Part shown: piece by piece, positions 14,441 to 32,731 of the stretch | Layout of the letters: each line of letters begins with the position of its first letter | How positions within the stretch are numbered: the stretch's first letter is position 1 | Origin: Rhodospirillales bacterium | GTDB taxonomy: Bacteria; Pseudomonadota; Alphaproteobacteria; UBA828 | Reading direction: 5' to 3' | Assembly (NCBI GenBank): GCA_028820995.1 | Contig: JAPPHR010000069.1 | Span: forward strand, 1 to 36,581 | Length of the DNA stretch: 36,581 bases | Notes under the pieces: generated by a model | Seen by the model: only the letters and a program-made list of their open reading frames with translations | The model's database searches: none | What the model was told of the DNA's origin: nothing | Translations under genes and position numbers: made by a program

Positions 14441-15787
14441 TTAGCCAAGGTGCCGCAAGCGGGCGGCGTAGAAGCCGTCCATTCCGCCGGCTTCCGCCCA
14501 ATGGCAGGGAAGGGTGCGCAGATCGCCGGCCGCCGTGATGGCCTCGCTGAAGCCCGCAAGCTCGCCGGCGCGCACCGGCACGCGCGCGAATTCCGGCGCC
14601 ACCGCGAGGAATGCGCTCACCTGGCGCTCGCATTCCTCCGGCTGAAGCGAGCAGCTCGCGTAAACGAAGAGCCCCCCACGCGCCAGCATCCCGGCGGCGC
14701 GCGCCAACAGCCGGCCCTGCAATGCGGCGAGTCGCTCCACATCGGCGGGCTTGCGGCCGTGCGGAATATCGGGGTGGCGCCTGATCGTGCCGGTCGCCGT
14801 GCACGGCACGTCGAGCAGCACGGCGTCGGCAAGCGCTGGCGGGTGCCAGTCCAGCGCATCGGCCTCGACGATCTCGGCCTCCAGGCCGAGTCGCGCCAAA
14901 TTCTCCCTGAACCGGGCAAGACGGGCGGCGGAGCGGTCGACGGCGGTGACGCGTGCGCCCGCGGCGGCGAGCTGCGCGGTCTTGCCGCCGGGGGCCGCGC
15001 CGATCTCCAAGACGTGCTTGCCGGCGACGGGGCCGAGCAGGCGGACCGGCAGGGCCGCCGCCGCGTCCTGCACCCACCAGGCGCCCGCCTCGTAGCCCTT
15101 GAGCCGTGTCACCGCGCCGGCGCCCCGCAGCCGGAGCGTGCCGCCGGGCAGGCGCTCGGCGGCCAGCGCGGCGCGGAGCGCCTCGGCTCGGTCCTCCGGG
15201 CCGGAGGCCAGCGAGAGGTCGAGCGGCGGCTCCTGGAGGTGGGATTCGGCGATGGCGCGGCAGCGCTCCTCGCCGTAGGCCCGAGCCCAGCTCTGCCAGA
15301 GCCAGTCGGGTGTGTTGAGGCGGGGCCCGTCGAGTGCCGCGATCGCCCCATGCTCGCGGGAGGCCCGGCGCAGCACTGCGTTGACGAACCCGCGATAGGG
15401 CGCAAGACGTTGGCCCTGCGTCAGTGCGACAGTGCTCGCCACCGCAGCGTGCGCGGGCGTCTCGAGAAATGCGAGTTGGGCAACCCCGAGCCGCAATACG
15501 TCCTGCACCGCCCCGCGGCGCGCAGGCAGCGGGCGCTCCATGAGCCCGGCCAAGAAGGCGTCGATCTGGCCGAGGCGGCGGAGCGTCGTCAGCAGCAGCA
15601 GACGCGCGAAGGCAGCGTCGCGTGGCGAGAGCGCATCCAGCCCCGGTGCGTCGGCAAGCGCCTGGTCGAGGGCGCGGCCCCGGCGCAGAATCGCCCCCAG
15701 CGCATGGGCCGCAGCCGCGCGTGCATCGCGCGGCTGGCTCGAGCGTTCCCGTTTCACGCGGAAACGCTCTGACTCTTTGTCGCTCAC
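14441..15787 (-). CDS. rsmB: 16S rRNA (cytosine-C5) methyltransferase RsmB
   Basis: NusB-like N-domain plus SAM-MTase '[28 protein letters not shown]', '[18 protein letters not shown]', '[12 protein letters not shown]'; GTG start lies inside the 145-bp repeat. Confidence 0.92.
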
Positions 15788-15885
15788 GGCAGCCGGCCTG
15801 CGGCGGGCGCCTCCGCGAGGGCGTTGCAGTTGCGGCGGGCCGCGGTCGCGGCCTGTCGCGCGTCCGTCGATGACGGACGCGCTCT
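15741..15885. repeat. 145-bp dispersed structured repeat, copy 1
   Basis: Ungapped alignment with 32587..32731 (about 20 mismatches by hand count). Right-end hairpin GCGTCCGTC-GAT-GACGGACGC; right terminus CGCTCTA. Confidence 0.9.
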
Positions 15886-17047
15886 ACTGATCGACGACAA
15901 AGCCGTCGCGATGGGGGCGCATGGTGACCGGGCGCTGGAACGGCGGGCGGCGCTCGGCCGCGTCCGGCGCGATCGCGACGCCGAGGCCCGGCACGTCGGG
16001 GATGGCGACGAAGCCGTCCTCCATCGGCGGCACACCCGTCACCACGTCCGAGCCGAGGAGGGCGAGGCTGGTCTCCATCTTCAGCGCCTCGAAGCCGGTG
16101 GTGTACTCCTGGATCGCGAAGTTCGGGATCGCCGCGGCGAGGTGAAGGCAGGCGGCGAGACCCAATGGCGAGAGCGGGTTGTGCGGCCCCACCATGACGT
16201 GGTGGGCCTCGGCCATCGCCGCTACCTTGCGCGCGCCGGTGATGCCGCCGCAGAGCGCCACGTCGACGCGGGCAAAGCCCGCGCCGTTGCGCGCGAAGAG
16301 GGCGCGGAAGTCGTGGAGAGAGGCGTAGCGCTCGCCGGTCGCAATGGGGGCGTTCACGCGGCGCGCCACCTCGGCCATGGCGTCCGGGTTCTCCGGCCGG
16401 ATCGGGTCCTCGCACCAGTAGGGCAGATAGCGCTCGATGCGCGGGATGAAGTCGATGGCCTCGGCGGGCGTGAGCCTGCGGTGGAGCTCCAGCAGCATGT
16501 CGACCTCGTCGCCCAGCGCCTCGCGCACGCGTCGTACGGTCTCCACGGCCCGGTTCATGTGGCTCACGTGGGAAGCGAAGAACGGCTCGTCCTCGCGCTC
16601 GTCGAGGAAGGGGTTGATGTGGCCCACCGCATTGAAGCCGGCGTCCTTCAGCGCGACGCAGTTCTCCACCAGCTCGTCGGTGGTCTTGCCGTAGGCATGG
16701 CCGTAGACCCTGGCGTGGCTCCGGCACGGCCCGCCGAGGAGGGAATGGACCGGGACGCCCAGCGCCTTGCCCTTGATGTCCCAGAGCGCGATGTCGATTG
16801 CCGCGATGGCGCCGTTGATCGCCGCGCCCTGGAAGTGGCTGAAGCGGTGCATGAGGTTCCAGTGGCGCTCGATGGGCCCCGGGTCCTGGCCCACGAGGTG
16901 GCCGGCGAAGGTCTCGATGGCCGCGCGCGAGGCCGCGAGATGCCCCCAGGTGCCGGATTCGCCGAGCCCCGTGATGCCGGCGTCGGTCTCGACACGCACG
17001 AACAGGAACTGGCCGATCGAGACCGGCGTGACTGCGGTGATTTTCAT
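15884..17047 (-). CDS. Mandelate racemase/muconate lactonizing enzyme (enolase superfamily), sugar-acid dehydratase-like
   Basis: 'ETDAGITGLGESG', 'AAIDIALWDIKGKALGVPVHSLLGG', 'WCEDPIRPENPDAMAEVARRVNAPIATGER', 'HNPLSPLGLAA'. Confidence 0.9.
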   Translation of the reverse strand: MKITAVTPVSIGQFLFVRVETDAGITGLGESGTWGHLAASRAAIETFAGHLVGQDPGPIERHWNLMHRFSHFQGAAINGAIAAIDIALWDIKGKALGVPVHSLLGGPCRSHARVYGHAYGKTTDELVENCVALKDAGFNAVGHINPFLDEREDEPFFASHVSHMNRAVETVRRVREALGDEVDMLLELHRRLTPAEAIDFIPRIERYLPYWCEDPIRPENPDAMAEVARRVNAPIATGERYASLHDFRALFARNGAGFARVDVALCGGITGARKVAAMAEAHHVMVGPHNPLSPLGLAACLHLAAAIPNFAIQEYTTGFEALKMETSLALLGSDVVTGVPPMEDGFVAIPDVPGLGVAIAPDAAERRPPFQRPVTMRPHRDGFVVDQ

Positions 17048-31786: not shown

Positions 31787-32587
31787 ATGAGCCAGAGCCA
31801 TGAGTCGGCGGCTGCGCTTGCCGAGCGGCTCTTCGCCGAGCACGCCGAAGGCCGGCCCTTCCGCCGCCTGCGGGGCGCCGACCGGCCCTCTTCGCTCGCC
31901 GAAGGCTATCGCGTGCAAGAGCTGCTCGTCCGGCGCTGGGTCGAGGCCGGGCGGGGCAGGCCCGCCGGCTACAAGGTGGGCCTCACCTCGGAGGCCATCC
32001 AGACGATGTACGGGAGCGACCAGCCGATCAGCGGGGTGGTTTTCGAGAGCGGGGTGCACCGCTCGCCCGCCCGGATCGCGCTTAGCCATTACGGCCGCCT
32101 CGGGATCGAGTTCGAGCTTGCGGTGGAGATCGGCACCGACTTCCGGCCCGAGGATGCGCCGTTCTCCCTCGACGATGCGGTTGCCCGTGTTGCGGCCTGC
32201 ATGCCCGCATTCGAGCTGATCGAGGACCGCCATGCGGACCACGACGACGTCGACGCTCCCTCCATCCTCGTGGACAATGCATGGTGCGCCGGGGTCGTGC
32301 TGGGGCCGCGCCGCGCCGACTGGCGCACGCTGGATCTCGCCAGCACTGCGGTTTCGCTGCGGGTCAACGACGCCCTTCCGTCCTCGGCGGTCACCGGTGC
32401 CGCCATGGGAAATCCGCTGCACTCGCTGGTCTGGCTCGCGGGCCAGCTTGCCTCGAGGGGGACCGCGCTCGCGGCCGGCACGATCGTGATGACCGGGAGC
32501 ACGCTGGCGACGCAGTTCCCCGATGCGGGCGATCGCTTCGTCTACGAGATCGAGGGGCTGGGCGGCGTGGAGGCCACCGTCGTCTAG
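31787..32587 (+). CDS. 2-keto-4-pentenoate hydratase / FAH-family protein
   Basis: 'GRPAGYKVGLTSEAIQTMYG', 'GIEFELAVEIGTDF', 'PAFELIEDRHADHD', 'SLVWLAGQLASRGTALAAGTIVMTGSTLATQFPDAGD'. Confidence 0.9.
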   Translation: MSQSHESAAALAERLFAEHAEGRPFRRLRGADRPSSLAEGYRVQELLVRRWVEAGRGRPAGYKVGLTSEAIQTMYGSDQPISGVVFESGVHRSPARIALSHYGRLGIEFELAVEIGTDFRPEDAPFSLDDAVARVAACMPAFELIEDRHADHDDVDAPSILVDNAWCAGVVLGPRRADWRTLDLASTAVSLRVNDALPSSAVTGAAMGNPLHSLVWLAGQLASRGTALAAGTIVMTGSTLATQFPDAGDRFVYEIEGLGGVEATVV

Positions 32588-32731
32588 AGCGTTTCCGTTT
32601 TAGACGGAAACGCTCCGATTCTTTGTCGCTCACGGCAGCCGGCCTGCGGCCGGCGCCTGCGCGGGCGCGCCGCATTCGCGGCGGGCCGCTGTCGCGGCCT
32701 GCCGCGTGTCCGTCAAGAACGGACGCGCTCT
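32587..32731. repeat. 145-bp dispersed structured repeat, copy 2 (intact hairpins)
   Basis: Hairpins: GAGCGTTTCCGT-TTTAG-ACGGAAACGCTC (32587-32615); GCCGGC-CTGCG-GCCGGC (32638-32654); CGCGGCGGGCCG-CTGTCG-CGGCCTGCCGCG (32677-32706, one G-T); GTCCGT-CAAGA-ACGGAC (32708-32724). Same length as copy 1. Confidence 0.92.

Follow-up and report, generated by a model that had tools for sequence, protein, structure and literature searches.

A TA-flanked palindromic element as the probable source of the rsmB start codon in a Rhodospirillales bacterium

The predicted start codon and N-terminal 16 residues of RsmB derive from a mobile-type element in a Rhodospirillales bacterium. Very probably, a TA-targeting, MITE-like element hit the TAG stop codon of the upstream MR/enolase-superfamily dehydratase-like gene (hereafter the MR gene) and replaced the rsmB start. 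The window, meaning the whole stretch of 36,581 nucleotides analyzed, is contig C25 of a draft genome (G000; 2.87 Mb, 67% complete). It was compared with seven congeners (G001–G007), so that the set comprises eight draft genomes of one genus, several of them fragmented. The relevant features of the window are as follows.

14441–15787, minus strand: rsmB, 448 aa, with a predicted GTG start within the element and residues 1–16 element-encoded.
15884–17047, minus strand: MR/enolase-superfamily dehydratase-like gene, upstream of rsmB; its TAG stop is formed by the element boundary and its Phe codon TTT contains the ancestral rsmB TTG.
15741–15884, minus strand: element copy 1 (short subtype, 144 bp), between the MR gene and rsmB, with ends GAGCG...CGCTC; the site is empty in six congeners.
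15885–15886: TA, right target-site copy, which with 15884 makes the regenerated MR stop TAG.
15739–15740: left copy of the target site, which is TA in G001 and has decayed to TC in the window.
15784–15900, minus strand: old rsmB start TTG (15900–15898) and the frame it opens through the element, 38 codons (48 in G001), ending at TGA 15786–15784, which overlaps GTG 15787–15785 (GTGA).
15755–15757, minus strand: second in-frame GTG (codon 11), in a hairpin loop and predicted 99% unpaired; an alternative start.
15741–15769: left terminal hairpin, part of the element, which encodes RsmB residues 7–16 on the minus strand.
32587–32730, plus strand: element copy 2, whose boundary supplies the TAG (32585–32587) of a hydratase-like gene at 31787–32587.

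The initial annotation placed the beginning of the rsmB frame inside the repeat, and the longest minus-strand frame does start there, at GTG 15787. The gene is real by Pfam (RsmB/F PF01189, 7e-41; PF01029, 4e-21), with an N-terminal NusB domain from residue 21. NCBIfam RsmB models match the window protein over nearly its full length, with scores under the curated cut-offs, and dN/dS values of 0.19–0.27 (about 0.2 against G007) indicate purifying selection. The rsmB frame becomes open behind the MR stop TAG. Near the 5′ end, the only in-frame ATG, GTG, or TTG codons are GTG 15787 and GTG 15757, both in the repeat; no further one occurs until about 60 codons on, in keeping with the earlier remark that none follows soon after the repeat. 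Whichever of the two GTG codons is used, the predicted start belongs to the element, and without residues 1–16 no ordinary rsmB start would remain. Loss of these residues would cost no known domain, because the NusB domain begins right after the repeat-coded part. No Shine-Dalgarno-like sequence was read at the usual distance before either GTG. The repeat at this site is not a chance resemblance, since copies 1 and 2 share 86% identity over 145 bp (E = 7e-44) and belong to a family with about 22 members in this genome. Copy 2 encodes a corresponding peptide in this frame, which upholds the original assignment of the peptide to the element. An assembly artifact was rejected: the MR gene and rsmB are adjacent in all eight genomes, and G001 carries the element at the same place.

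The remaining six congeners (G002–G007) lack the element at this site and preserve what appears to be the ancestral arrangement. In all six, the MR gene ends GGC TTT GTC GTC GAY CAR TAG and continues directly into rsmB, so that the MR stop sits within the first codons of the overlapping rsmB frame. The sole plausible rsmB start common to them is a TTG located out of frame in the MR Phe codon TTT, giving (M)SSTSSPPQGARAAAA and similar sequences. From this codon, RsmB measures 437 aa in five of the six and 440 aa in G004, and the N-termini read SSTSSPPQ-, SSTNSPPS-, SSTSSPSR-, SSTSSPPH-, SSINSPSS-, and SSTSSAQA-. A comparison with relatives lacking the repeat had been proposed as a check on the element origin of the peptide, and it came out in favor of that origin, with all six encoding a different peptide from a TTG in the upstream gene. 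When the G000 flanks were joined without the insert, the frame from TTG gave a 437-aa RsmB with an ancestral-type N-terminus. The start and N-terminus are attributed to the element on these two grounds, namely that congeners without the repeat differ at the N-terminus and that joined flanks restore the ancestral form. The putative ancestral TTG is under constraint, because the Phe codon that overlaps it is invariably TTT across the eight genomes despite a strong preference for TTC (236 TTC vs. 19 TTT in the window genes); other well-conserved MR Phe positions are nearly all TTC.

The filled site in G001 reads CAG-TA-[GAGCG...CGCTC]-TA-GCC, against CAG-TA-GCC in the empty type of G002–G007; the site in G000 is the same as in G001 except for a decayed second TA. 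Comparison of filled and empty sites shows that insertion duplicated the TA and re-created the TAG stop of the MR gene. The insertion cuts the rsmB frame behind the old TTG, and the element offers in its place a GTG followed by 15 codons in phase with rsmB and open through the terminal hairpin. In the proposed sequence of events, a MITE-like, TA-targeting palindromic element entered the TA of the MR TAG stop; duplication of the TA remade that stop, and the rsmB frame was severed from its TTG. The conserved element core, GCCGTGAGCGA, provides the GTG that opens into rsmB, so that 16 element residues now lead the RsmB frame, and GTG 15757 in the hairpin loop may serve as a second start.

A start past the element was also considered, in which RsmB initiates at a non-canonical codon (for example, the CTG at residue 30 or 34 in G000) and the element frame is open by chance. 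GC-rich element frames are indeed often open, with all 16 codons free of stops in 87 of 104 copies. Initiation at these positions would, however, cut the NusB domain; CTG30 is not kept in G003, G004, and G007; and the congeners protect a TTG further upstream. Such a downstream start is considered very improbable. In the favored reading, ribosomes still starting at the old TTG would translate 38 codons into the element, terminate at the TGA in GTGA, and reinitiate at the GTG. Stop-start overlaps of 4 nt are a known setting for termination-reinitiation (PMC6728339), and we infer that translation may be coupled in this way across the GTGA at rsmB. The overlap and the open leader are kept in both filled genomes, G000 and G001. 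An open leader frame is found in 84 of 104 element copies and cannot by itself be taken as a sign of selection.

The element is abundant in this genus: G000 has about 22 sizeable copies, and each of the seven congeners has many; a number occur in one other genus of the same family and few or none beyond. Its copies are dispersed, measure about 145–178 bp, encode no transposase, and carry short terminal inverted repeats (GAGCG...CGCTC) at both ends. In an alignment of 50 copies, five hairpins are predicted, arranged in a row around a near-invariant core. The conservation of this core is biased by the survey design, in which copies were found by a core-sequence pattern and the best-scoring ones were taken. 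Pairing is kept by two-sided changes in 16 of 50 predicted stem pairs, mostly in the two terminal hairpins, where such changes (alignment A1, columns 11–36 and 152–186) reach the flanking CTAG. They may reflect either selection on an RNA or DNA hairpin or template-switch repair of imperfect palindromes. A known structured RNA family was rejected, as Rfam covariance models gave no match to positions 15600–16000 up to E = 1. The left hairpin of copy 1 contains the mismatch and G-T pair first described. The accompanying suggestion that copy 1 had gained GTG 15757 was not borne out: GTG is the commonest state of codon 11, a variable loop position (25 of 104 copies; 5 of 16 in G000), it is also present in the rsmB copy of G001, and the CTA of copy 2 is the departure.

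The flanks of the surveyed copies point to a TA target. Of the right ends, 70 of 105 are bordered by TA, as are 59 of 104 left ends; TA makes up about 1% of dinucleotides in the window. A TA target-site duplication with empty alleles was found at two sites, rsmB and a locus in G005 (L208). The latter has a clean empty site in six congeners and the same TA duplication; its target is the TA shared by a pair of convergent stops, which read TTAG or CTAG in most congeners, and both stops survive. Gene ends in the survey were judged by codon usage, and neighboring genes mostly aim at the element (132 of 156 scored sides around 110 copies). A TAG stands exactly at the boundary in 66 of the 132 gene ends pointing to the element (counting sides that scored 25 or more for coding), and, with all sides counted, 66 of 110 elements (60%) have at least one boundary TAG stop. 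By comparison, 17 of 73 non-coding or stop TAs in the window lie in stop codons, so boundary stops are in excess; the corresponding binomial p, about 2e-16, ignores selection against other sites and the relatedness of copies. At five loci (L161, L186, L196, L208, and L213), both stops of a convergent gene pair are TAG codons made by the two ends of one element; a clean empty site was not obtained for L186, where the intergenic DNA is too diverged. The hydratase-like gene at 31787–32587 has its TAG at the copy 2 boundary, at a point where five of the six congeners with the junction have TGA. The element is absent from the junction in all six, and divergence of their intergenic DNA prevents a TA from being located.

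The orientation of neighboring genes and the compensatory changes in the stems would also be expected of a functional 3′-end module (a terminator or RNA stabilizer) that is not a transposon; its siting at gene ends would be due to selection and the rsmB arrangement a by-product. This interpretation is judged unlikely. The TA duplication and clean empty sites show insertion as a unit, no T run was read after the hairpins, and siting at gene ends also fits a TA target combined with purging of harmful inserts. A RAYT/REP origin (REP/BIME) was rejected, as no Y1 transposase (Y1_Tnp, PF01797) was found in any of the eight genomes; the controls were positive. IS630-family transposases are present in six of the eight; no DDE_3 was found in G003 and G006. 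It is plausible that an IS630-family transposase moves the element. IS630-like DDE_3 elements in G000 (C64, L268) and G001 (C365, L269) have a 326-aa open frame and the ends TA-GAGCGCGATCC and TA-GAGCACGATCC, which resemble TA-GAGCGCGTCC of the repeat over about ten bases only; they are a candidate parent.

The occurrence of the element at rsmB in both G000 and G001 raises the question of one insertion or two. Trees of rsmB and the MR gene group G000 with G007 and G001 with G002, and a sister relationship of G000 and G001 was rejected (AU p = 0.0002 for DNA, 0.0007 for protein). The G001 site holds a long subtype, also found elsewhere in that genome, and the G000 site holds a short subtype. 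Because the two are not sister species and the subtypes differ, independent insertions appear likelier than one, a conclusion held with moderate confidence. A single ancestral insertion, later lost precisely in G002, G003, G005, and G007 or carried by recombination from one of the two lineages, G000 and G001, to the other, would account for the same base, orientation, and loop codon GTG in both genomes, and the long subtype is present once in G000 as well (L018). On the rsmB and MR tree, however, it would require at least three or four exact excisions, and the two elements are 89% alike, each closer to copies at other sites. No window near the junction has raised similarity between G000 and G001, and a recombination tract carrying the junction was rejected on this ground. 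A single origin is considered the less probable of the two. A broader proposition, advanced tentatively and held to be somewhat less probable than its negation, is that this family replaces gene punctuation: insertion into the TA of a stop would always remake TAG, and in one orientation and phase the near-invariant GTGA core would add a coupled restart. At rsmB, two independent insertions would have struck the same base pair, each swapping the start while the gene was kept.

Among the surveyed genes, only rsmB was found to depend on an element start. Start donation as a general habit was rejected, since the other recognizable in-frame genes have their own downstream ATG; these are ribosomal protein S6-like, hydrolase-like, enoyl-CoA hydratase-like, and oxidoreductase-like ORFs (labels read from sequence). 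The copy upstream of the S6-like ORF (L007; G000:C100:825–969) is in frame with it; no ATG, GTG, or TTG occurs for about 26 codons past the element, and the downstream ATG is the likely start. Another copy directly precedes an alpha/beta-hydrolase-like gene, in frame with it, in G000 (C20, L002) and G007 (C41, L169). Its GTG frame is still open (278 aa), and the gene, which has its own ATG, could gain an extension of 17–21 residues. Occupying the same place in these sister genomes, this copy looks inherited.

Small hairpin elements with a TA target (ERIC, Correia, RUP) are already known (PMC2229807), and the present element is a TA-flanked, MITE-like unit of this kind, built as a row of hairpins and plausibly mobilized by IS630. 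RUP, Correia/NEMIS, and ERIC/RU-1 share its size class (about 100–200 bp), lack of a transposase gene, TA ends with duplication, and stable hairpins (PMC2229807, PMC3049150), and RUP is thought to be moved by IS630-Spn1 (PMC2229807, PMC3049150). Compared by description, it differs from RUP, Correia, and ERIC in having a hairpin row in place of one long fold-back and in its terminal repeats, which are very short (GAGCG). CIR elements of Caulobacter and Brucella are likewise alphaproteobacterial, with TA ends and arms folding as separate hairpins (PMC2229807), but their GANTC mark occurs in only 29 of 108 copies here. CIR have not been found inside genes (PMC2229807). The initial annotation likened the repeat to Rickettsia palindromic elements, which are palindromic, about 100–150 bp, and translated in a host protein (PMC2229807, PMC10969869). 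The likeness extends to palindromy and translation but is otherwise loose, and they are not the closest analogue: Rickettsia elements sit in frame inside coding sequences, whereas this element lies at gene ends, often at the stop codon (boundary TAG in 66 of 110 copies), and replaces a start.

Precedents exist for parts of this behavior. ERIC/RU units are capable of in-frame fusion with genes (PMC2759123). In pneumococcus, 36 genes take their stop codon from a BOX repeat, and expressed ORFs that lack a good Shine-Dalgarno sequence can have their start codon supplied by boxC (PMC3049150). The BOX-started ORFs are hypothetical, whereas rsmB encodes an rRNA methyltransferase that is conserved, and both its empty-site ancestor and its former start are known. 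A literature search for stop-remaking or start-donating elements returned only these RU- and BOX-type precedents, which is weak evidence of absence. The new features are a conserved gene with a replaced start, an empty-site ancestor with a protected former start, stop-remaking as a family trait, and, probably, repetition of the insertion event at rsmB.

Claims of mobile DNA in proteins usually come without the ancestral state. For rsmB, the filled and empty alleles, the former start, and codon-level constraint are all known, so the path can be read: an overlapping gene pair was split, a stop was remade, a start was replaced, and the gene survived. The findings suggest a route by which such elements settle in gene-dense genomes, because ends beginning with G after a TA target would be nearly harmless to the upstream gene when they land at its stop codon. 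They also carry a warning for annotation: in this genus, a repeat may be the source of a start site or an N-terminus.
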